64,000 nt of DNA, taken from Nitrosospira sp. Nsp14. Its GTDB lineage: Bacteria > Pseudomonadota > Gammaproteobacteria > Burkholderiales > Nitrosomonadaceae. The position numbers and the translations under genes were made by a program. Location: the NCBI RefSeq assembly GCF_900113575.1, contig NZ_FOPV01000008.1:62001-126000 (forward strand). Direction: 5' to 3'. Of the stretch, positions 1 to 12,283 are shown piece after piece. The notes beneath the pieces were generated by a model, which was not told where the DNA came from, searched no databases, and was given only the letters and a program-made list of their open reading frames with translations. Each line of letters starts with the position of its first letter. Positions within the stretch are counted from its first letter, which is position 1.

Positions 1-714
1 GTGAAGCAAACCGCGCAGCATGCAAGCCAGAAAGCGAAGTACGTTTCCGACAGCGCGCAGAAAGCTTCCAACGTCTCCCAAGCGGGGCGCCGATCGGTTG
101 AAGAGGCTCTTCATGTGATGCACCGCATCAGGGAACAAATGGGCTCCATCGCGGAAAGCATCGTCCAGCTATCTGAGCAGAGTCACGCCATCGGTCAGAT
201 TATCGCCACGGTCAACGACCTCGCTGAGCAATCCAACCTCCTCGCGGTTAATGCCGCGATCGAGGCGGCCCGGGCCGGCGAACAAGGCAAGAGTTTTGGC
301 GTGGTGGCGCATGAGATCAGAAGTCTTGCCGAGCAATCCAAGCAGGCGACGGGCCAAGTGCGCACCATTCTTGGCGACATTCAGAAGGCCACCAACGTCG
401 CCGTTCTCGCTACCGAACAGGGCAATAAGGCAGTTGAAGCGGGGGTAAAGCAGTCATCCGAAACGGATGAAGCAATCCGGCTTCTGTCTGCGAGCATCAA
501 CGAGGCGGCGCAGGCGGCCACACAGATCGCGGCGTCCAGTCACCAGCAAATGGTTGGCATGGATCAGGTGGCGGTGGCGATGAATAATATCAAGGAGGCA
601 AGCGAGCAGAACGTTGCAGGCACGAGGCAGGCCGAGCTGGCCGCACAGGGGCTTCATCAGATGGGAGTCAGGCTGAGATTACTGGTCGGCGGCAAGGATT
701 TCCATACCGACTGA
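1..714 (+). CDS. Methyl-accepting chemotaxis protein, C-terminal part (cut by window edge)
   Basis: This is the cytoplasmic signalling end of a chemoreceptor, which passes ligand or surface signals to CheA. The reading frame is open to the first base, so the real start lies upstream and the GTG at position 1 is probably an internal valine codon. The 237 visible residues are almost all coiled coil. They include the conserved hairpin tip around residues 75-115 ([20 protein letters not shown] followed by [18 protein letters not shown]), the CheA/CheW contact region. The gene ends 12 bp before cheA and so heads or joins the chemosensory operon. Sensor and membrane segments cannot be seen. Family identity is certain; the stimulus is unknown. 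Confidence 0.95.
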
Positions 715-726
715 TGGGCGATATCC

Positions 727-3069
727 ATGAAAAGCAAGCATGATGAGCTCCTGAAAAAACTCCTTGCCACGTTTCGACTTGAAGCGGATGGGCATCTGCA
801 AAACATGGTTGCGGGTCTGCTATCCCTGGAAAAAACACCTGTAGCTGAGCAATCTGCTCTGGTTGAAGTGATTTTTCGAGCCGCACACAGCTTGAAAGGG
901 GCCGCCCGAGCGGTAAATCTTACACACGTCGAAGCCGTGTGCCGATCTTTGGAAAATGTGTTTTCAGCAACGAAAGAGCGTCGCTTGGTCATTTCATCGG
1001 ACTTGATCGACCTGCTGCTCCAGGCAACAGACGTGCTGGAGCGTCTTGTTAACATGAATGATGCCGATGCCAGCGCGCTCAAACTGCCGGCAGCCACGCT
1101 CACTCGGCAGCTCGACGACGCATTGATAAGCCCGGCGCATGAATTTCCGGTGCCGAAGCCGCCACGTCAGATTGCGCCAGTACCCTCCGATAATACGCCC
1201 GCCGGGTCCGGCGCGAATACGACTCCGAGTCCCGCTCCTACCCGGGCATCGGCCACGGTAAGGGTTTCCGCGGAAAAACTCGATATGGTGATGCGCCAGG
1301 TTGAGGAGCTTTTGCTACCACGTCTGACGGTCGGCCATCGCGTCGAGGAGATTGGCCATGCCGCGACAACACTTGCGGCCTGGAAGAAGCAACGGCTTCA
1401 AATTCAATCCGTATTGCGAGTCGTTGATCGTGAGCTTACGCACGGTATTCGGGACGGCAATCATCATTCCCTTGCGGCGCATGAGCTCCCCAAGCTCCTC
1501 AAATATCTTGATGCCGAGCAAGTTCAGATGAAAATGCTTGAGGATCAGCTCGCCCGGTTGCAGCAGGCCGCAGCGCAGGATCAGCGCATGCTTGCGAGCA
1601 TGACCGATTCCCTGCGCCAGGATGTCAAGGAAATGCAGCTATTGCCATTTTCGTCGTTGCTGAACATCCTCCCGCGATTTTCGCGTGAGCTGGCACGGGA
1701 GCAGGGCAAAAGCCTGGAAATGACAATTCAGGGAAGCGAGCTTGAGATGGATCGCCACATCCTGGAAGAGATGAAAGACCCGCTCATTCACCTCGTACGT
1801 AACTGCATCGACCACGGCCTCGAGCCATCGCCTGTACGTGTAGGCAAGGGCAAACGGCCCCAGGGAACCATCACCATAGCGTGCTCCCAAAAAGACAGTA
1901 GTACGATTGAAGTGCTCGTCGCTGACGACGGTGCCGGCTTTGACATCCCCATGATGAAAGAGGCGGCCTATAAGCTCGGTGTCGTTTCCGCCGACGAGGC
2001 GGAGCAGTTGGGTGAAGCTGAAGCCACCGCCCTAGCCTTTCAATCTGGGGTCACAACCAGCCCCATCGTCACGGATATATCGGGACGCGGACTCGGGCTC
2101 GCGATTGTCCATGAAAAGGTCGAACACCTCGGCGGCAGTATAGTCGTTAAGACAAAATCTGGCGTCGGGACTGCTTTCCATATTTCACTTCCACGGGCAC
2201 TGGCGAACTTCCGCGGCGTCCTTGTTCACGCTAGCGAGCAGCTTTTTGTTATTCCCTCTACGAGTGTGGAGCGCGTAGTCAGGATTTCCCGTAAGGAAAT
2301 CCTGACCGTGGAAAACCGGCCGACCATCCTGGTGGATAAGCAGCCGGTTTCTCTCGTATGGCTGAGCGATGTGCTTGAATTGCCTCGCCGCGCGGCACCC
2401 CTTGAACCGACGGATGATGCGACAGCAGTCGTGCTCGGATCAGGGCTTCTTCGGGTAGCGTTTTTAGTGGACGAAATTGTCGGTGAACAAGAGGTACTGG
2501 TTAAAGCGCTAGTTCGACCTTTGACCCGAGTGCGCAACATTGCAGGGGCGAGCGTGCTGGGCTCCGGTCGCGTGGCGCCCGTGCTCAACACAACCGATTT
2601 GCTCAAGTCGGCCGTGAAGCGCCCGAGCGCAACGCGGAAATTTACCCACCCGTTATCGCCCCCAAAGGATAAAAAAGAAAAAAAACAATCGATTCTTGTG
2701 GTGGAGGATTCGATCACTTCGCGCGTATTGCTCAAAAACATCCTGGAGTCGGCAGGCTATCGTGTCAGCACGGCAGTGGATGGAGTAGATGGATACACCC
2801 TGCTCAAGACTGCCGCCTTCGATTTGGTCGTCTCGGATGTGGAAATGCCACGCATGGATGGCTTTGGCCTCACGGCACAAATTCGTGCCGAGAAGCAGTT
2901 TGCGGGGTTGCCTGTCGTACTGGTAACGGCACTGGAATCGCGCGAACACCGTGAGCGCGGCATTGACGTGGGTGCCAATGCCTACATTGTCAAAACCAGC
3001 TTTGATCAGAGCAACCTGCTGGAGGTTATCCGGCGACTTATTGGTAGGTCATCAACTTCGCTCGCATGA
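727..3069 (+). CDS. cheA: Hybrid chemotaxis histidine kinase CheA with C-terminal receiver (WspE-like)
   Basis: This is a 780-residue chemotaxis-type kinase that autophosphorylates in response to the adjacent receptor and phosphorylates response regulators. The N-terminal Hpt domain carries the phospho-accepting His54 in HSLKGAAR. The HATPase domain has an N box (HLVRNCIDHGLE) and glycine boxes (DDGAGFD, GRGLGLAIV). A CheW-like coupling domain follows. A receiver domain at about 655-775 has the phospho-acceptor Asp704 in SDVEMPRMDG. The CheA-receiver fusion is typical of alternative-function systems such as WspE and of Pil-Chp kinases, more than of flagellar CheA. The stop overlaps the cheB start (ATGA), showing translational coupling. 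The family is certain; Wsp-like assignment is inferred from architecture and order. Confidence 0.95.
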   Translation: MKSKHDELLKKLLATFRLEADGHLQNMVAGLLSLEKTPVAEQSALVEVIFRAAHSLKGAARAVNLTHVEAVCRSLENVFSATKERRLVISSDLIDLLLQATDVLERLVNMNDADASALKLPAATLTRQLDDALISPAHEFPVPKPPRQIAPVPSDNTPAGSGANTTPSPAPTRASATVRVSAEKLDMVMRQVEELLLPRLTVGHRVEEIGHAATTLAAWKKQRLQIQSVLRVVDRELTHGIRDGNHHSLAAHELPKLLKYLDAEQVQMKMLEDQLARLQQAAAQDQRMLASMTDSLRQDVKEMQLLPFSSLLNILPRFSRELAREQGKSLEMTIQGSELEMDRHILEEMKDPLIHLVRNCIDHGLEPSPVRVGKGKRPQGTITIACSQKDSSTIEVLVADDGAGFDIPMMKEAAYKLGVVSADEAEQLGEAEATALAFQSGVTTSPIVTDISGRGLGLAIVHEKVEHLGGSIVVKTKSGVGTAFHISLPRALANFRGVLVHASEQLFVIPSTSVERVVRISRKEILTVENRPTILVDKQPVSLVWLSDVLELPRRAAPLEPTDDATAVVLGSGLLRVAFLVDEIVGEQEVLVKALVRPLTRVRNIAGASVLGSGRVAPVLNTTDLLKSAVKRPSATRKFTHPLSPPKDKKEKKQSILVVEDSITSRVLLKNILESAGYRVSTAVDGVDGYTLLKTAAFDLVVSDVEMPRMDGFGLTAQIRAEKQFAGLPVVLVTALESREHRERGIDVGANAYIVKTSFDQSNLLEVIRRLIGRSSTSLA

Positions 3070-4127
3070 TCAAGGTCCTGGTAGTGGATGATTCGCCCGT
3101 AGTGCGTGAATTCCTTGTTCACATCCTAAGTTCCGACCCTGTTATTACCGTTATAGGTACAGCAGATGACGGCGAGGAAGCACTCGACATTGTGCGTCGC
3201 CAACGGCCGGACGTAATCACAATGGACATTCATATGCCCAAAATGAACGGGCTTGACGCGACACGCCTGATCATGGAGACGGACCCGACACCAATTGTTA
3301 TCGTCAGCGGTACTGAAGATCCCACTGAAGTCGCCACTACGTTTAATGCAATGGACGCCGGCGCATTGGCGGTGCTGCGCCGCCCGGCTGGCATAGGCCA
3401 TCCCGACCACGAGGCGATGGCTCAAGACATGATACAAACGGTAAAACTGATGTCCGAGGTGAAGGTAATACGACGCTGGCCACGCAAGCGGCCCGCGGCG
3501 CCGACTCCCCGCACAGGAAACATGGGATTGGCGCGCGCATCAGCCCGAATACGGGTTGTCGCCATTGGCGCTTCCACGGGAGGGCCACCGGCGCTCGAAA
3601 CAATCCTGGCGGCGCTTTCCAAAGATTTTCCGGTGCCAATTTTAATCGTCCAGCACATGGCGCCCGGCTTTATCAAGGGCTTCGCCCGCTGGCTGGCGAC
3701 TTCAACGGGCATGCCCGTCCATGTCGCAACACACGGCGAGTCCCTGCTGCCCGGGCATGTCTATGTAGCGCCCGATGATCACCAGATGAAAGTGGAGCGC
3801 GAAGGAAAGATTGCACTGACAAAAAACGATCCCGAGCATGGACTACGGCCTTCGATTTCATACCTCTTCCGTGCTGTTGCCGCTGTATATGGCGCAGATG
3901 CCGTGGTTGGATTATTGACGGGAATGGGGCGCGACGGAGCAAGCGAACTGAGACTGCTCAAGGAGCATGGCGCCGTTACTTTTGCGCAGGACAGGGACAG
4001 TTCTGTGGTGCACGGCATGCCTGGTGAAGCTATCAAGCTGGATGCCGCGATGCTGGTCCTGCCGCTGGAGAAAATCGCCGCCGTCCTAACCAATCTTGTG
4101 AATCATAGGGGAGAAATTAGAGCGTGA
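3066..4127 (+). CDS. cheB: Chemotaxis response regulator / protein-glutamate methylesterase CheB (WspF-like)
   Basis: CheB removes methyl groups from receptor glutamates and so resets signalling after phosphorylation by CheA. The 353-residue protein has an N-terminal receiver with the predicted acceptor Asp54 (MDIHMPKMNG), a linker, and a C-terminal methylesterase. The catalytic triad is visible as Ser170 (GASTGG), His197 (QHMAPGF) and Asp290 (LLTGMGRDGA). The start codon overlaps the cheA stop, and the cheB stop overlaps the next gene start by 4 bp. The partner methyltransferase CheR is not in the window and may lie upstream of position 1. In the Wsp system the CheB protein (WspF) acts as a brake on the pathway. 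Confidence 0.95.
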   Translation: MIKVLVVDDSPVVREFLVHILSSDPVITVIGTADDGEEALDIVRRQRPDVITMDIHMPKMNGLDATRLIMETDPTPIVIVSGTEDPTEVATTFNAMDAGALAVLRRPAGIGHPDHEAMAQDMIQTVKLMSEVKVIRRWPRKRPAAPTPRTGNMGLARASARIRVVAIGASTGGPPALETILAALSKDFPVPILIVQHMAPGFIKGFARWLATSTGMPVHVATHGESLLPGHVYVAPDDHQMKVEREGKIALTKNDPEHGLRPSISYLFRAVAAVYGADAVVGLLTGMGRDGASELRLLKEHGAVTFAQDRDSSVVHGMPGEAIKLDAAMLVLPLEKIAAVLTNLVNHRGEIRA

Positions 4128-7096
4128 GCGCGACGAGCGACATTCAGAGTAAACCCAGCCATGCGGAGATTTTGATCGCGGAGGACAGCCCGACTCAAGC
4201 GGAAAAACTGCGCTACCTGCTGGAGGAGCATGGCTATTCCGTTATCGCCGTGTCAAATGGCAGACAGGCCCTCGCAGAAGCTCACCGACGCAAGCCCACC
4301 CTGATCGTGAGTGACGTAGTGATGCCCGAGATGGATGGATACATGCTCTGCCGGGAGATCAAACGGACTGAAGAGCTCAAGGATATACCTGTCGTACTGC
4401 TCACCTCGCTGTCCGACATCAGGGACATCATGAAAGGGCTGGAATGCGGGGCGGATAATTTCATCCGCAAGCCTTATGACAACGAGTATCTCCTCTCCCG
4501 CATCAGCTATCTGCTCATGAATCTGACGTTACGAAAGAATCAGAAGATGCAGATGGGAATGGAAATTTTCCTGGGTGGACAAAAGCATTTCATAACGGCC
4601 GAACGCCAGCAGATATTGGACTTGCTGATTTCAATCTATGAGGATGCAATCCGCCTCAACAATGAGCTTCATGCGCGGCAACTGGAGTTGGCCCACTCGA
4701 ATCACTTGCTCAACGGTCTTTACCGCATCGCCGAGGGGTTGAACCAGGCGGTAACCGAACGCGAGGTTTGTGAAAAAGCGCTTGAGTATGCAATGGAGCT
4801 ACCGGGGCTGCGAGCAGGATGGCTCTACCTCGAAAACAACAACACTTTCAGGCTGGCTGCGGCGCGCAATGCGCCCCCCACATTGTTGGCAGTGCCAACG
4901 GCAGATGGACCATGCCATTGTCAACGCCTTTTCCTCGACGGAGAGCTAGCCCAGGTTACCAATATTATCGGTTGCAGGCATCTCGTGGAACCGGAAGCGG
5001 ACGCCACCAGCCCGAGCTGCCATGCCAGCGTCCCGCTGCGGAATGGCAATCGAAACCGGGGCATTCTCAATCTGGTGGGGAACGAAAGAGCTCTGTTCAG
5101 CGATAACGAACTGGAAATGTTATATGGTATCGGCCATCAGGTAAGCATTGCGCTCGAGCGCGCCTGGTTGCATGAAAACATGGAACAACTGGTTGCGCAG
5201 CGGACTGCGGCGCTCACTGCGGAAATCTCCCTGCGTAAAGAGTACGAGGCCAGGATTGTCCGGCTCAACCGTCTTTACAGCGTGTTAAGTGGTATTAACA
5301 CCACTATCGTGCGCGTCCGGGGAACGCAAGAGCTTTTTGACGACGCGTGCCGTCTTGCAGTCGATCACGGACGATTCGTGTTTTGCTGGATCGGCATGTT
5401 CGACGCAGACACAAGGAACATCACCCCCATGGCCAAGGCCGGTCGCGACGACGGTTACCTGTCACAGCTAAGCCTGGATAATGTGCTCGAATCTCCAGGA
5501 AACTCATTCCTGATTGCGCAGGCGATAACGCAGGCCCAGCCAGCAATTTGCAACGATCTTACCGACCAGCGCCTGCGGCTCACCCATGCGGCAGCGGTGG
5601 AGCGCGGCTATTATTCCACTGTGGTACTGCCGCTGACGCTTGAAGGCCATGTAATCGGCATGTTCGCGCTCTATGCGTCCGAAATCGGGTTCTTCGATGA
5701 GGAGGAAATGGCCCTGCTTAGCGAGATGGCGGGGGATATTTCGTTCGCCATGGATCACTTGAAAAAAGAGGAACGCCTTAATTATCTGGCTTTCTTTAAT
5801 GCGGTCACGAATCTGCCTAATCGAGCGCTTTTTCTAGACCGCGTCGATCAGCGCATCAGAACGAGCGAACACAATCATGAAGTGCTTTCCGTGATCATTC
5901 TCGACCTCGAGCGCTTCAGCAGTATAAACGAGTCGCTTGGGCATCAGGCGGGAGATAGCCTGCTGCGCCAGCTCGCGCAACGACTGAAGCAGCTACTCGG
6001 GGAAACTGACATTTTGGCCCATCTTTCCGCGGATCATTTTGCCATTGCCACCACGCATGAAGGAGAAAGTACAATCATTGCCCATGTTCTGGATAAGCTT
6101 TTACTCGGAATCCAGAACCAACCTTTCCTGATAGGTGGGCAGGAGCTGCACGTTTCCGCCAGAGCCGGTACATCGTCGTATCCCGGCGACGGGCGGGATA
6201 CCGATACACTTTTGCGGCACGCTGAAACAGCGCTGAAAAGGGCCAAGGTTTCTTGCGACAGACACCTGTTCTATGCCCCTGAGTTCAATGCCCGCATAAC
6301 CGAGAAGCTCAAGCTTGAAACCAAGTTGCGGCAGGCCCTGGAGCAGGAACAGCTGGTGCTGCACTACCAGCCGAAAATCAATCTCAAAACCGGACAGATC
6401 AGCGGCCTGGAGGCCCTGATGCGCTGGCGCGATCCGGAAATCGGCCTGATACCGCCGCTGAGTTTCATTCCTTTGCTCGAAGAAACGCGGATGATACTCG
6501 AGGCGGGTCGCTGGGCGTTGGGCAAGGCAATATCCGATTACAGGAAATGGCAAGCCATGGGATTGAATCCACCCAAGATAGCGGTAAATGTCTCGCCAAT
6601 ACAATTACGACAGAGTGATTTCGTCGATATGGTTGCCAGCGTTTTGAATGCCGCAAACAACGTCGACATCGGCCTTGAGTTTGAGATTACCGAAAGCGTG
6701 ATCATGCAGGACATAGAAGCGAATATAAAAAAGCTCAGGTGCATACGCGACATGAATATCGAAGTCGCGATAGATGATTTTGGTACTGGCTACTCCTCGC
6801 TCAGCTACATCGCCAAGTTGCCGGTCAATGTGCTTAAAATCGACCGCGCTTTCATTATTAATATGACCACGAACCCCGACGACTTTACGATCGTTTCCGC
6901 CATCATATCCTTGGCCCATTCCCTGCATCTGCAGGTGATCGCGGAGGGAGTGGAAACCCATGAGCAGGCAGCGCTTTTGCGGGCGCTCGAATGTGATGAA
7001 ATGCAGGGATACTTGTTTAGCCCCGGCGTCACCTGCGACAAGGTTGAAGAGCTTCTGCGGCAAAATAAATCGCTTTCCCCGCAGCCCACCCACTGA
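4124..7096 (+). CDS. Response regulator with receiver, two GAF, degenerate GGDEF and EAL domains (cyclic di-GMP phosphodiesterase)
   Basis: This 990-residue protein is the probable output of the chemosensory operon. A receiver domain with Asp64 (SDVVMPEMDG) is followed by GAF-like domains at about 195-345 and 385-545. A GGDEF-type domain at about 560-715 has SADHF (635-639) in place of GGDEF, so cyclase activity is not expected. The C-terminal EAL domain (about 730-975) keeps EAL (763-765), NVSP, the ITES glutamate, DDFGTGYSS, KID and AEGVET, the residues needed to hydrolyse cyclic di-GMP. It starts with GTG overlapping the cheB stop. In Wsp operons this position is held by the cyclase WspR, so the output here appears reversed. 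Domain calls are from motifs; activity is inferred. Confidence 0.92.
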   Translation: MSATSDIQSKPSHAEILIAEDSPTQAEKLRYLLEEHGYSVIAVSNGRQALAEAHRRKPTLIVSDVVMPEMDGYMLCREIKRTEELKDIPVVLLTSLSDIRDIMKGLECGADNFIRKPYDNEYLLSRISYLLMNLTLRKNQKMQMGMEIFLGGQKHFITAERQQILDLLISIYEDAIRLNNELHARQLELAHSNHLLNGLYRIAEGLNQAVTEREVCEKALEYAMELPGLRAGWLYLENNNTFRLAAARNAPPTLLAVPTADGPCHCQRLFLDGELAQVTNIIGCRHLVEPEADATSPSCHASVPLRNGNRNRGILNLVGNERALFSDNELEMLYGIGHQVSIALERAWLHENMEQLVAQRTAALTAEISLRKEYEARIVRLNRLYSVLSGINTTIVRVRGTQELFDDACRLAVDHGRFVFCWIGMFDADTRNITPMAKAGRDDGYLSQLSLDNVLESPGNSFLIAQAITQAQPAICNDLTDQRLRLTHAAAVERGYYSTVVLPLTLEGHVIGMFALYASEIGFFDEEEMALLSEMAGDISFAMDHLKKEERLNYLAFFNAVTNLPNRALFLDRVDQRIRTSEHNHEVLSVIILDLERFSSINESLGHQAGDSLLRQLAQRLKQLLGETDILAHLSADHFAIATTHEGESTIIAHVLDKLLLGIQNQPFLIGGQELHVSARAGTSSYPGDGRDTDTLLRHAETALKRAKVSCDRHLFYAPEFNARITEKLKLETKLRQALEQEQLVLHYQPKINLKTGQISGLEALMRWRDPEIGLIPPLSFIPLLEETRMILEAGRWALGKAISDYRKWQAMGLNPPKIAVNVSPIQLRQSDFVDMVASVLNAANNVDIGLEFEITESVIMQDIEANIKKLRCIRDMNIEVAIDDFGTGYSSLSYIAKLPVNVLKIDRAFIINMTTNPDDFTIVSAIISLAHSLHLQVIAEGVETHEQAALLRALECDEMQGYLFSPGVTCDKVEELLRQNKSLSPQPTH

Positions 7097-7481
7097 AGAT
7101 TGGCTCAACCCGCTCCATATGATGCTTGGTCCTTCGGCACCGTGCCCTTCGATGCCCATTGTTGAGTAACCTGCTTCCTCGCCCTAGCGTGCCACCTATA
7201 AGGGTCCCGATGATGCCGCTGCGGAGATGCGGCCTGTTGCGCCTCTGACGCCTACGCCAAGGGATTTGCGAAAAACAATATCGCGGCAAATGCAAATATC
7301 ACTGTTCTGATGATATTCGAGAAATAATCGGATTTGCATTGCGCGGACTGAAATGGATGAGCGAAGGCTGGTTACTATTCCTGCTCCCGTAACAATGCGC
7401 ATCTCCTGTTGACCACTGCGGGTCTACTAAGAGTACTATTGAAAATCATTACGGCGATCAGATTTGGGATTTCCAGAACCC
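7097..7481. other. Intergenic region after the chemosensory operon
   Basis: About 385 bp separate the phosphodiesterase gene from the DHH phosphoesterase gene. I see no convincing gene, no strong hairpin followed by a T-tract, and no repeat. The region presumably holds the operon's 3' end and the promoter of the next gene. Confidence 0.4.
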
Positions 7482-8435
7482 ATGAATTATGATGTATTCA
7501 ACGGCGATGCCGACGGCTTGTGCGCCTTGCATCAGCTCCGACTGGCAAATCCGGCGTTGGCGGAACTGGTTACCGGCGTCAAACGAGACATTAAGCTGCT
7601 TGACCGGGTGAAAGCCGGCGCGGGGGACCACGTAACCGTGCTTGATATCTCACTCGACAGTAACCGTGTCGGACTCATGCGATTGTTGGAGGCGGGCGCA
7701 AGCGTTGATTATTTCGACCATCATTATGCCGGAGAGATACCGCTGCATCATAATCTTGCCGTTCATATCGATTTATCCGCGGACGTGTGCACCAGCATCC
7801 TTGTTGATCGGCACTTGCATGGACGCTTTCGCCTGTGGACCATCGTCGCCGCCTTTGGTGACAACCTTGGGCAGAATGCTCGCACCCTTGCGAAAGACGC
7901 GGGACTCGCAAAACCTCAAATAGAAAAGCTCGCGTCTCTTGGCGAATACCTGAATTATAACGGCTACGGCGACCGTCTTCAGGACCTGCATTTCGATCCC
8001 GTCAAACTGTATAAGGAAATGCAGCCCTATCCCGATCCATTCGACTTCATTGCCAAATCACCCGCCTTTGATCGGCTTGCGGAGGGATTCAATCATGACA
8101 TAAACATGACTGTTTCGCTACGCCCGATACAGGCACGAGGACACCACGCAGCCTATCTGTTACCCGACGAGGCCTGGGCGAGGCGAGTAAACGGGATTTT
8201 TGCAAACAAGCTGGCTAACGATGATCCGATGCGCGCTCATGCCGTAATCACCTCGAACCGGTTTGGCGAGTATACGATCAGCGTGCGCGCCCCAGTCGCA
8301 AATCCACAAGGCGCCGACGCGCTTTGCCTCAAGTTCGAAACGGGGGGCGGACGCCGCGCCGCCGCCGGCATCAACCGTCTCCCCGCAGATGCTCTTGACG
8401 GATTCCTCGCAATGTTCGCTGAACAGTTTCCCTAG
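7482..8435 (+). CDS. DHH/DHHA1 family phosphoesterase
   Basis: This 317-residue protein belongs to the DHH superfamily of metal-dependent phosphoesterases, whose members cleave nanoRNA, cyclic dinucleotides or related phosphodiesters. Metal-binding motifs are visible as GDADG (Asp9, Asp11), LDIS near residue 55 and DHH (79-81). The C-terminal DHHA1-like region carries GGGRRAAAG, where most relatives have a histidine (GGGH) that binds substrate. I chose the ATG at 7482 because the protein then begins directly at the core strand; a TTG 18 bp upstream is also open. It lies alone between the chemosensory operon and a kinase fusion. The substrate cannot be read from the sequence. Confidence 0.8.
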   Translation: MNYDVFNGDADGLCALHQLRLANPALAELVTGVKRDIKLLDRVKAGAGDHVTVLDISLDSNRVGLMRLLEAGASVDYFDHHYAGEIPLHHNLAVHIDLSADVCTSILVDRHLHGRFRLWTIVAAFGDNLGQNARTLAKDAGLAKPQIEKLASLGEYLNYNGYGDRLQDLHFDPVKLYKEMQPYPDPFDFIAKSPAFDRLAEGFNHDINMTVSLRPIQARGHHAAYLLPDEAWARRVNGIFANKLANDDPMRAHAVITSNRFGEYTISVRAPVANPQGADALCLKFETGGGRRAAAGINRLPADALDGFLAMFAEQFP

Positions 8436-8492
8436 ACGATGTTGGTCGCCCGTACTGCCGGGGCATGCCGTGCTGTCGGCTGAAAGCATGCA

Positions 8493-10109
8493 ATGGTAAA
8501 GCATTCAAAACCCCATCCTCGTACGCCGCAATCCGATGACAATCGTCAGGTCAGGCTGGTCACTGCCTTGCTGGACCCGGGGCGCTATCCTCATGCGGCG
8601 AAACGTGTGCATCTGATCGAAACGCATATTTCCTGGGTGCTGCTGGCAGGACGCTATGCATACAAAATCAAAAAATCGGTTGATCTCGGCTTCCTGAATT
8701 TTACCAGCCTCGCATTGCGTCGCGATTATTGCAAAGAAGAAATCCGGCTGAACCGCCGGCTGGCGCCGCAGCTATATCTCGATGTCATTCCCATCGGCGG
8801 TACGTCGGAATCGCCCCTATTTGGCGCGAAGCCTGCGATTGAATATGCCGTTAGAATGAGACGCTTTCCCACATCCAGGCAATTGGATCGCCTTGTCGCG
8901 CGCAACAAGCTTCTGCCCGCACATATCGATACCCTGGCGGTCACCATTGCTCATTTTCATAACGGATTACCCGCGGGGGAGACCGCAAGCCAGTTTGGTA
9001 CAGCCGCTGCCACGCATTCAGCAGTATCGAAAAGTTTCGAGCAATTGCAGGCTGCCCTAGCCGGTGGGGAAGACGAAACCAGCGTAGTCGCGCTGCACCA
9101 GGCGCTGCAGGCCGAATATGACAAATGTAAATATCGACTTGAGCAGCGCCATATGCGGGGCTTCATACGCGAGTGCCATGGTGATCTGCATCTTGGCAAT
9201 ATTGCACTCATCCGCAATCAACCCACCCCCTTTGACTGTATCGAATTCAACCCGGCGTTGCGCTGGATTGACGTGATGAATGAAGTTGCCTTTACAGTCA
9301 TGGATCTGTTGCATTACCAGCGGCCTGAGCTCGCCTTCCGTTTCCTGAACGCTTATCTGGAGTCTACTGGAGATTATAGCGCCGTCCCGTTGCTGCGATA
9401 TTATGTTGCCTATCGCGCAGTTGTGCGCGCCATGGTCAATGCCATTCGCGCCGGACAGACGAGCTTGGGCGAGCGGGCGCGGACGGAAGCAATTGCACAT
9501 TGCCGCGATTTCGTCGCTCTGGCCGCGCAGCGCCTCGCATGGGACCGGCCAGCGCTCATCATTACCCACGGGTTGCCCGGGTCGGGCAAAACCACTTTTT
9601 CGCAGGTCGCGCTGGAACGCCTGCAGGCAATCCGCATCCGTTCCGACGTGGAGCGCAAACGTTTATTTGGACTCGCGCCGCTCGCGGACAGCGGCGCGCT
9701 TGCGGAGCCCATCTACACTGCCAACGCGACGCAACAAACCTACGCACGCCTTTATGAACTCGCACGCGAACTGCTGACGGCAGGCATCGCCGTGATCGTG
9801 GATGCCGCCTTTCTCAGGCGGCATGAACGTGAACTTTTCCGTGGTTTGGCGCATGAACTCGCGGTACCGTTTGCCATCGCGTCGCTGCAAGCCAGTACGA
9901 CGGCCTTGAAGGCGCGCATAACCCGACGGCGGAACGAGTCGAACGACGCTTCCGAAGCAGATCTCGCCGTGCTGAAATCATTGCAGGCACAACAGGAAAT
10001 GCTGACACCCGCTGAGCAACATAACACCATAGAGTTTTTCAATGAAGGCAAGGAATTTGCTGCCGATGCATACACTTGGGAGAAGATCGATCGGCTGATA
10101 CCACGCTGA
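8493..10109 (+). CDS. Fusion of aminoglycoside-phosphotransferase-like kinase and P-loop kinase
   Basis: This is a 538-residue two-domain protein. The N-terminal part (about 1-330) resembles APH/choline-kinase-type phosphotransferases and has the catalytic loop CHGDLHLGN and a following DCIEFN segment. The C-terminal part (about 355-520) is a P-loop kinase of the AAA_33/zeta-toxin-like group with Walker A GLPGSGKTT. Such fusions are widespread in proteobacteria and usually annotated as bifunctional aminoglycoside phosphotransferase/ATP-binding protein, but real substrates are not established. It follows the DHH gene by 57 bp on the same strand and may be cotranscribed. Resistance to aminoglycosides should not be assumed. 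Confidence 0.8.
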   Translation: MVKHSKPHPRTPQSDDNRQVRLVTALLDPGRYPHAAKRVHLIETHISWVLLAGRYAYKIKKSVDLGFLNFTSLALRRDYCKEEIRLNRRLAPQLYLDVIPIGGTSESPLFGAKPAIEYAVRMRRFPTSRQLDRLVARNKLLPAHIDTLAVTIAHFHNGLPAGETASQFGTAAATHSAVSKSFEQLQAALAGGEDETSVVALHQALQAEYDKCKYRLEQRHMRGFIRECHGDLHLGNIALIRNQPTPFDCIEFNPALRWIDVMNEVAFTVMDLLHYQRPELAFRFLNAYLESTGDYSAVPLLRYYVAYRAVVRAMVNAIRAGQTSLGERARTEAIAHCRDFVALAAQRLAWDRPALIITHGLPGSGKTTFSQVALERLQAIRIRSDVERKRLFGLAPLADSGALAEPIYTANATQQTYARLYELARELLTAGIAVIVDAAFLRRHERELFRGLAHELAVPFAIASLQASTTALKARITRRRNESNDASEADLAVLKSLQAQQEMLTPAEQHNTIEFFNEGKEFAADAYTWEKIDRLIPR

Positions 10110-10316
10110 GGACAATGAACATGAACAGTCGACCAGGAAACGCCGACTAGGCCCAGTTCGAACTATCGAATTAATTAAGGTCTTCCCCGGCTTATCTATA
10201 TTTCAGGGAAACGGCATTCCACTTCAACCCATCTCCGTGATAACCTTTCTTTAAGAAATCCTCGAGGCGAGTGCCCAGAGATTCAGAATCAGCCCAGTCC
10301 CCACCCACTAATTGCC

Positions 10317-11042
10317 ATGCTAAGGACAACAGTACGCTTACCGGTCAGAAGCCTGCCACAGCCGGATGAAACAACCTGCGGCCCTACCTGCCTGCATGCC
10401 ATGTACAACTATTGGGGCAAGACTGAACCACTCAAGAGCGTCATCATCCGCACCCGGAAACTGGAAAGCGGAAGCGGTACCTTTGCAGTGTTTCTGGGTT
10501 GCGATGCCCTGCGCAATGGTTTTCAAGCCACCATATATACATATAACCTTATGATGTTCGATCCGACCTGGTTCGCACCGGGGATGGACATCGCCGAACG
10601 GCTGAGGCAGCAGCGCGAGCTAAAGCGGGAACCGCGATTGCGGCATGCCACCGAGGGCTATCTGGAGTTCCTCCGCCTAGGCGGAAGGTTGCGCCTGACC
10701 GACCTATCGCAATCGCTCGTCCACGGCCTCTTGCGCCGCGGCCTTCCGATTCTGACCGGATTGAGCTCAACATACCTTTACCGCGCCGCGAGGGAATACG
10801 GGCCGGACGACACGCCCGATGACGTCCGGGGGTTCCCCGCGGGACATTTCGTAGTCTTGACCGGCTATGACCGCCGCAAGCGCACCGTGCTTGTGGCCGA
10901 TCCTTATGGTCCTTTTCAGGAGTACTGGTGCAATATCGACCGCGTGTTGGGCGCGGTGCTGCTGGGAATTGTTACGCATGACGCCAATTTGCTGGTAATC
11001 CATTCTCGCGGGCATCAGGATCATCCTGACGAAGGAGGATGA
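10317..11042 (+). CDS. C39-like papain-fold cysteine peptidase
   Basis: This 241-residue protein looks like a C39-type papain-fold cysteine peptidase. The triad is visible as Cys21 (TTCGPTCL), His177 (GHFVVLTGYD) and Asp195 (VADPYG). There is no signal peptide, transmembrane segment or ABC domain, so it is not a standard bacteriocin-processing exporter and should act in the cytoplasm. Its stop overlaps the start of the GCS2 ligase gene (ATGA), so the two are translationally coupled. C39-like proteins are known beside RimK-type ATP-grasp ligases and GCS2 proteins in other proteobacteria, but no RimK gene is visible here. The substrate is unknown. Confidence 0.72.
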   Translation: MLRTTVRLPVRSLPQPDETTCGPTCLHAMYNYWGKTEPLKSVIIRTRKLESGSGTFAVFLGCDALRNGFQATIYTYNLMMFDPTWFAPGMDIAERLRQQRELKREPRLRHATEGYLEFLRLGGRLRLTDLSQSLVHGLLRRGLPILTGLSSTYLYRAAREYGPDDTPDDVRGFPAGHFVVLTGYDRRKRTVLVADPYGPFQEYWCNIDRVLGAVLLGIVTHDANLLVIHSRGHQDHPDEGG

Positions 11043-12283
11043 GCCTCACGTTGTCCGCTTTTTCGGGCTATGGCATCGAACTGGAGTACATGATCGTGAA
11101 TCGCACGACGCTGGCGATCCTGCCCATCGCCGAAAAGGTACTGCAACGGATTTCCGAAACGTGCGCTTCCGGGCTCAGATGCGACGAGCTGGCATGGTCC
11201 CACGAGCTGGTGCTGCATCTTATTGAGCTCAAAAACGTTGAACCCGATAACGATATAGACGCGCTCGCGGCCGGGTTTCAAAGCGAGATTCAGCGGATAA
11301 ACGACTTGCTCGAACCGATGGGGGCTCGGCTCATGCCCACCGCCATGCACCCATGGATGAACCCGCGAATCGAGACGCGGATATGGCAGCGTGAAAACGC
11401 GGAAATTTACACTGCATACGACCGGATTTTTGACTGCAGTAGGCATGGCTGGGCCAATCTGCAAAGCATGCAGCTCAACGTGCCGTTCGCGAATGATCAT
11501 GAGTTCGCCCGTCTTCACGCTGCCGTCCGGCTGTTGCTGCCCATCCTCCCCGCGCTCGCAGCAAGCTCCCCGATTGTTGAGGGTGGCGATGCCGGTTGGA
11601 TGGATTTTCGGATGGAAAGCTATCTTACCCATCAGGCAAGGGTGCCCCTGACCATGGGGAAAGTGATTCCGGATACCGCCAGCAGTCGCGCGGCCTACGA
11701 GCGCGACATTCTGGCACCGATGTATCAAGAGGTCAGGGCGCTCGATGCACAGAGAATTTTGCAGCACGAGTGGCTCAATGTTCGCGGGGCCGTCCCCCGC
11801 TTTGACCGCAATGCAATCGAAATCCGTGTTATTGACACGCAGGAATGTCCCCAGGCCGACCTCGCCATTGCTGCCGCTACGACCGATATTCTGCGTACGC
11901 TCTATGATGAAGTAAACGCGCCCCTCCCCGAGCAGCAGGCCATGGAGACCGATGTGCTTGTCGAGATCATGCACGCGTGCATCCGTAGTGCGGAGGAGGC
12001 GGTAATCACCAACGCCGAGTATCTGCGGCTGCTGGGCTTTCCGGATCACCGATGCGATGCCGGTGAGCTCTGGCGCCATCTGATCGGGTCAATCGCGTGG
12101 AATCAACCAGAACAGCGCGAACACGCGCGCCCACCGCTACAGGTTATGCTGGATTATGGTCCGCTTGCACGCCGAATCAAAGGTGCCGTGGGGCCGGAGT
12201 GCAGTAAAAAGCGGCTGATGGAAGTGTACAAGAAACTATGCGATTGCCTCGAAGCGGGCACGATGTTTTTGGGATTGGATTAG
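11039..12283 (+). CDS. Glutamate-cysteine ligase family (GCS2) carboxylate-amine ligase
   Basis: This 414-residue protein is of the GCS2 family, which joins the gamma-carboxylate of glutamate to an amine using ATP. It begins with the core FSGYGIELEYMIV, whose glutamates bind metal, and carries the later signatures MQLNVPF, MDFRMES and FDRNAIEIRVIDTQECPQAD. It is more distant from housekeeping GshA than from orphan GCS2 proteins such as the YbdK group. A strong AAGGAGG directly abuts the ATG at 11039, an unusually short spacing, and the start overlaps the C39 peptidase stop. An N-formylglutamate amidohydrolase gene follows within 75 bp. The trio suggests making or remodelling a glutamyl-containing compound, which is inference. 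Confidence 0.8.
   Translation: MSLTLSAFSGYGIELEYMIVNRTTLAILPIAEKVLQRISETCASGLRCDELAWSHELVLHLIELKNVEPDNDIDALAAGFQSEIQRINDLLEPMGARLMPTAMHPWMNPRIETRIWQRENAEIYTAYDRIFDCSRHGWANLQSMQLNVPFANDHEFARLHAAVRLLLPILPALAASSPIVEGGDAGWMDFRMESYLTHQARVPLTMGKVIPDTASSRAAYERDILAPMYQEVRALDAQRILQHEWLNVRGAVPRFDRNAIEIRVIDTQECPQADLAIAAATTDILRTLYDEVNAPLPEQQAMETDVLVEIMHACIRSAEEAVITNAEYLRLLGFPDHRCDAGELWRHLIGSIAWNQPEQREHARPPLQVMLDYGPLARRIKGAVGPECSKKRLMEVYKKLCDCLEAGTMFLGLD

Follow-up and report, generated by a model that had tools for sequence, protein, structure and literature searches.

The DNA analysed here, a window of 64,000 nucleotides from Nitrosospira sp. Nsp14, opens inside a seven-gene chemosensory operon whose last gene encodes a predicted cyclic di-GMP phosphodiesterase. 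The window is contig C39:62001-126000 (NZ_FOPV01000008.1) of a 3.36-Mb draft genome in 54 contigs (99.98% complete), and the contig DNA upstream of it was also read; positions there are given for locus L004, in which a coordinate minus 10000 gives the window coordinate. Open reading frames and Pfam models define the order cheW, cheR-TPR, cheW, receptor, cheA-REC, cheB and an output gene of REC-GAF-GAF-GGDEF-EAL make-up, and every domain named for the four genes in the window matched its model above cut-off. The first three genes lie upstream of the window, at L004 6598-7050 (Pfam CheW), 7057-8505 (Pfam CheR plus TPR) and 8505-9149 (Pfam CheW). The receptor gene, for a methyl-accepting chemotaxis protein (MCP), spans L004 9248-10714; it starts at window position -752 and has its 3′ part at window 1..714, with the MCP signalling domain (MCPsignal) at about 46-597. 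Then come, likewise on the forward strand, cheA-REC (727..3069; L004 10727-13069; Hpt, HATPase, CheW-like and C-terminal REC domains), the methylesterase gene cheB (3066..4127; L004 13066-14127; REC-CheB) and the gene for the 990-residue output response regulator (4124..7096; L004 14124-17096), whose GTG start overlaps the cheB stop. The operon's genes overlap or sit no more than 12 bases apart, except for a 98-base gap ahead of the receptor gene, and its three CheW-domain matches are the only ones in the genome.

The initial annotation, made from the sequence of the window, had described a receptor, a CheA-receiver hybrid, CheB and a receiver-bearing cyclic di-GMP protein in series. All four lie where it placed them, with Pfam support, and the upstream cheW and cheR genes to which it pointed are present as cheW, cheR-TPR and cheW directly ahead of the receptor gene. 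CheA has H54, the N box, the G1 and G2 boxes and receiver residue D704, and CheB has D54 in its receiver together with S170, H197 and D290, which we take to be its catalytic residues. The sensor domain of the receptor, encoded upstream of the window, gave a weak 4HB_MCP_1 match (28.6 bits against a cut-off of 27), and no Pfam match to HAMP was found in this receptor.

The output protein carries an EAL domain with a complete catalytic set (6323..7024; E763, N822, E854, D884/D885, K905, E941 and Q961), as judged by Pfam and by alignment with solved EAL domains, among them MorA, MucR, DosP, RocR (3SY8) and YahA. The four best-aligned structures, three chains deposited as 'motility regulator', which we take to be MorA, and one of MucR, have the same EAL residues, one MorA chain having an altered DD pair. 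Upstream of the EAL domain lies a degenerate GGDEF domain (5801..6247; Pfam and alignment), in which the GG(D/E)EF loop of diguanylate cyclases is replaced by SADHF (6026..6040; residues 635-639). The receiver domain (4169..4504) has E20, D21, D64, T94 and K116. The functions of these EAL and receiver residues and of the GGDEF loop are well established. Two GAF domains (4763..5155, the least conserved domain within the genus, and 5324..5755, called by Pfam) separate the receiver from the GGDEF domain; the initial annotation passed over these but was right about the receiver, the SADHF loop and the intact EAL domain. From these motifs the protein is likely to be a phosphodiesterase rather than a cyclase, in keeping with the predicted chemosensory pathway with a phosphodiesterase output, for which the operon supplies two cheW genes and one cheR.

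We compared the operon across 23 genomes of the genus (G000-G022, G000 being that of the window). Eighteen contain the seven genes in identical order (L004 and L051-L067; CheB of L054 is split over two frames), and this constancy argues that the arrangement is more than chance. All 18 have the output gene, with the active residues of the EAL and receiver domains intact in every one and the GG of the GGDEF loop in none; the loop reads SAD(H/Y)F in 16, SGDHF in one and SSDHF in one. In G002, G006, G007 and G008 a single in-frame stop raised the possibility of a broken output gene, which was rejected, the stop appearing at the very start of the match and each open frame encoding 991 residues. No orthologue of the output protein showed in the five genomes that lack the operon (G001, which is 80% complete, G005, G012, G013 and G019). 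The best match in the last four is a paralogue of 37-41% identity, and that in G001 scores E 8.4e-98, with its alignment row not listed; CheW-domain matches in the five number 2, 2, 0, 0 and 2, respectively. Mean pairwise identity among the 18 output proteins is 0.73 overall, 0.78 for the receiver, 0.55 and 0.65 for the two GAF domains, 0.84 for the linker at 345-400, 0.77 for the GGDEF domain and 0.81 for the EAL domain. That a degenerate GGDEF domain is still so well conserved argues for a structural or regulatory role.

On its gene content the operon falls in the 'alternative cellular function' (ACF) class of chemosensory systems, whose outputs vary. Its CheR is fused to TPR and a multidomain response regulator lies within the cluster, both of them traits of such clusters in a 2012 survey (PMC3447774); its CheA is fused to REC; and no tie to flagella or type IV pili showed, FliG and flagellin giving no match and the PilT model staying below its cut-off in the genome. 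A flagellar or Pil-Chp system, which the initial annotation had kept in view, was rejected, as the output is multidomain rather than a single-domain CheY and the neighbours named by Pfam include no flagellar or pil gene. ACF is one class among 19 (PMC9239204) and, with the type IV pilus (Tfp) class, makes up the chemosensory systems acting on cyclic di-GMP (PMC8846402). CheA/Y clusters of Geobacter, for their part, are most like Myxococcus xanthus Frz, Pseudomonas aeruginosa cluster 3 and R. centenum cluster 3 (PMC2577667). Outputs of the present kind are not new to the class: the receivers of cheR-TPR clusters counted in 2012 already include one REC-EAL and two REC-GGDEF-EAL proteins (PMC3447774). 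The available portion of that account describes no dedicated phosphodiesterase system and does not discuss degenerate GGDEF domains. Searches of the open-access literature brought up, as judged by titles and abstract openings, no experimental study of an ACF operon with an EAL output, and none on such a system in Nitrosospira.

To place this output among those of related operons we drew on two sets of loci. In the first, 300 genomes of the order were examined for CheA, with matches at E<=1e-75 in 90; neighbourhoods were compared for 35 matches in 35 genomes of other families, plus repeats for G134 and G101 and two flagellar-type clusters of the window's own family, and CheA matches in long frames (about 1600-2600 residues) mostly fall outside this comparison. 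Beside CheW-first CheA relatives outside the family there are 13 REC-GGDEF-EAL outputs (L072, L073, L075, L087-L089, L091-L093, L097, L098, L101 and L102), 12 of which lack the GGDEF motif; the EAL domain is only partly read in L091 and L102, whose outputs are split over two frames, and in L098, whose output runs off the stretch. Histidine kinase outputs occur in the same set (L094, L095, L096 and L100, the first three by Pfam). At least one GGDEF gene lies between cheA and cheB in L072/L128, L089, L135 and L136, and after cheA in L090, possibly giving paired cyclase and phosphodiesterase outputs.

The second set comes from a multi-phylum scan with a CheA alignment, from which the best 80 of at least 572 stretches encoding relatives were kept; many of these loci end at contig ends, and L126-L129 repeat genomes of the order-wide set. 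Outputs were labelled with purpose-built small domain models among receiver proteins up to 9.5 kb after the CheA start, EAL taking precedence. Among these 80, a histidine kinase is the output in 38, EAL in 17, another receiver protein in 10 and GGDEF without EAL in 5, with none seen in 9 and a CheA that could not be separated in 1. Ten of the 17 EAL loci have the EAL protein as their first receiver protein after CheB, and in the other 7 (L131, L137, L138, L142, L146, L154 and L195) a kinase-bearing receiver protein precedes it; L131, L137 and L138 each combine a REC-HK-REC output with a second, separate output of REC-EAL type. By architecture the 17 divide into 14 REC-GGDEF-EAL and 3 REC-EAL. 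Only L196 among the 14 has a letter-perfect GGDEF, with GGDQF in L142 and GGNTF in L154, and the EAL residues are kept in 13, L154 being degenerate. On a CheA tree of 115 rows, which omits L126-L129 and many earlier rows and has no row for L182 (its CheA shares one frame with the receptor), the EAL label changes 9 times, against 28.9 with shuffled labels; the 31-row group holding the window's CheA comprises 24 EAL, 4 kinase and 3 unlabelled loci. Outputs are thus clustered on the CheA tree but have been repeatedly exchanged.

A neighbouring genus retains the output gene without the operon beside it. Four of its genomes keep the gene at 52-54% identity, and none of the other six operon proteins was matched beside it in the stretch read (only 4.4 kb in L069, and broken in L071). 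Gly-Ser replaces the acidic pair and Arg the lysine in all three readable receivers (L068-L070), D64, T94 and the EAL positions being kept and QGY reading QGD. CheW-domain matches occur in three of the four genomes, all on other contigs, and in the one che cluster read there (L125) no receiver is fused to CheA. Loss of the array thus accompanies decay of the receiver, as expected if the operon's CheA was the phosphodonor. The three drafts being related, this decay is probably a single event.

Collectively, these results lead us to propose, with a probability of roughly 70%, that the operon encodes a chemosensory array of the ACF class that serves to lower cyclic di-GMP through a phosphorylation-activated EAL phosphodiesterase. 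Two CheW proteins and CheA-REC would assemble into an array with a membrane receptor whose periplasmic domain is of 4HB type, the gain of the array being set by methylation by CheR-TPR against demethylation by CheB. CheA would autophosphorylate at H54 and phosphorylate CheB, its own receiver (which is likely a sink or a second output) and the output protein at D64; this last phosphorylation would switch on the phosphodiesterase and lead to hydrolysis of cyclic di-GMP. The two GAF domains may add gating by signals of their own, and the SADHF domain would make no cyclic di-GMP and serve as a regulatory or dimerization part. The sequence itself gives the gene order, the domains, the intact and degenerate motifs, their conservation, the decay of the receiver where the operon is absent and the lack of a flagellar match in the window's genome; from these we infer phosphotransfer, hydrolysis and activation, rather than inhibition, by phosphate. 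This explanation is favoured because the content, order and domains of the operon fit it; because the EAL residues align with those of solved domains and are kept, with the receiver residues, throughout the genus while the GG is missing; because most REC-GGDEF-EAL outputs beside CheW-first relatives outside the family lack GGDEF; because the output gene accompanies the operon and fails to show where the operon is missing; because receivers that outlived the operon lost the acidic pair and lysine as their EAL residues stayed; because the window's genome gave no flagellar match and no PilT match above cut-off; and because P. aeruginosa offers a precedent for phosphodiesterase action that depends on CheA (PMC3861689).

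Several observations weigh against this proposal. The window's genome has 16 EAL and 16 GGDEF matches, because of which any effect on the total cyclic di-GMP pool may be local. Pfam analysis of the neighbours found no known cyclic di-GMP target encoded beside the operon, and a PilZ search of the genome gave one weak match only. Among related operons, an intact GGDEF accompanies the EAL domain in L093 and, with a second receiver as well, in all five of L107, L108, L110, L111 and L112; the close CheA relatives L130 and L134 have a histidine kinase output, and in L090 (CheA 59% identical) the 17.7 kb read encodes GGDEF proteins, with no EAL protein seen among them. The argument from receiver decay rests on three related drafts that are 82-95% complete. 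Finally, receivers can act either way on their outputs, and the sign of phosphorylation control cannot be deduced from sequence.

This last point leaves room for a reading in which phosphorylation inhibits the phosphodiesterase and signalling from the receptor drives cyclic di-GMP up, the direction taken in Wsp, but here by relief of breakdown. We consider it unlikely, the CheA-Pch pair of P. aeruginosa being an activating one, yet Pch belongs to flagellar chemotaxis and serves as an analogy only (PMC3861689). In that organism a CheA H49N substitution raises cyclic di-GMP, from which its authors concluded that phosphorylated CheA promotes the Pch phosphodiesterase, so that chemosensory CheA activity lowers cyclic di-GMP as proposed here (PMC3861689). 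The pair differs from the Nitrosospira system in that its CheA is that of flagellar chemotaxis and Pch (PA5017) is in complex with CheA at the pole (PMC3861689). The response regulators RocR and PvrR (REC-EAL) also couple a receiver to an EAL phosphodiesterase, and RocR (3SY8) matches the EAL domain by sequence. Regulators of the RocR/PvrR type are driven by two-component sensor kinases and have no GAF or GGDEF parts; the pch gene of P. aeruginosa, for its part, lies apart from the che genes.

Another reading, compatible with the proposed cyclic di-GMP-lowering array, is that in flagellated members of the genus the operon is in effect a motility pathway, its CheA being the sole one and acting on flagella through cyclic di-GMP. 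FliG was matched in all 22 other genomes of the genus and flagellin in 21. Seventeen of these have FliG and the operon, and 16 of the 17 have no CheW-domain match beyond the operon's three (G003 has two more). No flagellar CheA was seen in the FliG-bearing G002, G004, G006-G011, G014-G018 and G020-G022, and no stand-alone CheY in 36 kb (G022) or 19 kb (G008) near flagellar genes, where the only receiver frames encode 246 and 238 residues. Against this, the window's genome keeps the operon without a match to FliG or flagellin, an apparent loss of flagella in one species; the operon therefore persists without a flagellum, and the pathway is unlikely to serve swimming there. A flagellar role in this genome was dropped after these searches. 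The sole PilT model match there scored 151 bits against a cut-off of 319, and no other pilus marker was searched. PilZ, moreover, gave one match each in only 10 of the 23 genomes (E 4.7e-11 to 1.5e-5), nothing firm for a PilZ link. We therefore regard an account by motility as doubtful; motility may be one role of the operon in flagellated members, but not the only one.

The output protein could instead be a non-enzymatic sensor of cyclic di-GMP or GTP, since it has a degenerate GGDEF domain and some large GGDEF-EAL proteins are without enzymatic activity. Retention of the EAL catalytic positions in all 18 genomes, and an EAL identity above that of the whole protein (0.81 against 0.73), make this improbable.

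The initial annotation had matched the operon to the Wsp surface-sensing system (WspABCDEFR of Pseudomonas and betaproteobacteria) and looked to the CheA phylogeny for kinship with WspE. On gene order, receptor domains and the CheA tree, membership was dropped: the operon is, by these comparisons, a relative of Wsp and not a member, and the Wsp name should be dropped. Nine of the 35 order-wide loci are of Wsp type, eight of them reading MCP-CheW-CheR-CheW-CheA-CheB-REC/GGDEF, and the output of one (L119) matches the WspR structure 3BRE at E 2.4e-133 (3I5B and 3I5C in the same list are also named WspR). In the ninth (L122) a REC-HK gene stands ahead of the receptor and no REC-GGDEF was seen, a layout that resembles the WspH arrangement in Burkholderia. 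In a tree of 53 CheAs, which omits five near-copies (L053, L058, L065, L066 and L067), the nine CheAs of Wsp type make up a clade with 100/100 support; the window's CheA is not in that clade and groups with CheW-first operons at 98/98. The receptor gene stands fourth in the operon rather than first, and HAMP, without a match here, was present in all three Wsp receptors tested. The aligned WspR-type outputs (L116-L120 and L123) read GGEEF, and WspR is a diguanylate cyclase; here, instead of WspR (REC-GGDEF/GGEEF) or WspH, the operon ends in REC-GAF-GAF-SADHF-EAL. All 794 wsp clusters found in one survey carry wspR or wspH (PMC8552884), in agreement with the remark in the initial annotation that it knew of no Wsp pathway with such an output; that remark understates what is known for the wider ACF class (PMC3447774). 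A true Wsp system with wspR replaced by an EAL protein, in which surface contact would lower cyclic di-GMP, is thus very improbable despite the common protein set (two CheW, CheR-TPR, CheA-REC, CheB, a receiver-type cyclic di-GMP output and a 4HB-type receptor), as the operon shares its CheW-CheR-CheW-MCP-CheA order with 33 of the 42 ACF loci that reach at least 6.5 kb upstream among the best 80 of at least 572 (adjacent receptors counted once). With the ACF clusters surveyed in 2012 (PMC3447774) the operon shares CheR-TPR and a multidomain response regulator, and with the loci of the CheA-alignment scan two CheW, CheA-REC and gene order. L107, L108, L110, L111 and L112 form a second ACF group, with REC-GGDEF-EAL-REC outputs.

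Around the operon, Pfam names a phosphoribosyltransferase, an alginate-export protein, GreA/GreB-Rnk, GCS2 and others. The PF13372 alginate-export-type protein (L004 3073-4773) lies about 1.8 kb upstream of the first cheW, with the phosphoribosyltransferase gene between, and its link to the operon is putative at most. Downstream, window 7464-12283 encodes a 323-residue frame without a Pfam match, an AAA_33 protein, a C39-like peptidase and a GCS2-type glutamate-cysteine ligase.

The Wsp system serves as the model of a chemotaxis-like array that promotes biofilm through synthesis of cyclic di-GMP. The surface-sensing table of PMC8846402 contains diguanylate cyclase outputs only in its available portion, and a WspR-RpfG complex reported in Lysobacter is another tie between Wsp and cyclic di-GMP turnover (PMC9758175). 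More tentatively, and with less than even confidence, we suggest that the operon represents a widespread proteobacterial ACF branch dedicated to cyclic di-GMP removal and thus the mirror image of Wsp, and that it may be the sole chemosensory control of behaviour in those members of the Nitrosospira genus that have flagella (in most of them no second CheA was seen), acting only through cyclic di-GMP with no CheY-motor link. For receiver specificity, a ready comparison is offered by the neighbouring genus, where the output gene has outlasted the array. Ammonia oxidisers live partly as biofilms and micro-colonies. If the proposal is true, an array of similar design that removes cyclic di-GMP would mean that receptor arrays can drive the second messenger in either direction, and the operon would be a possible dispersal sensor in ammonia oxidisers.

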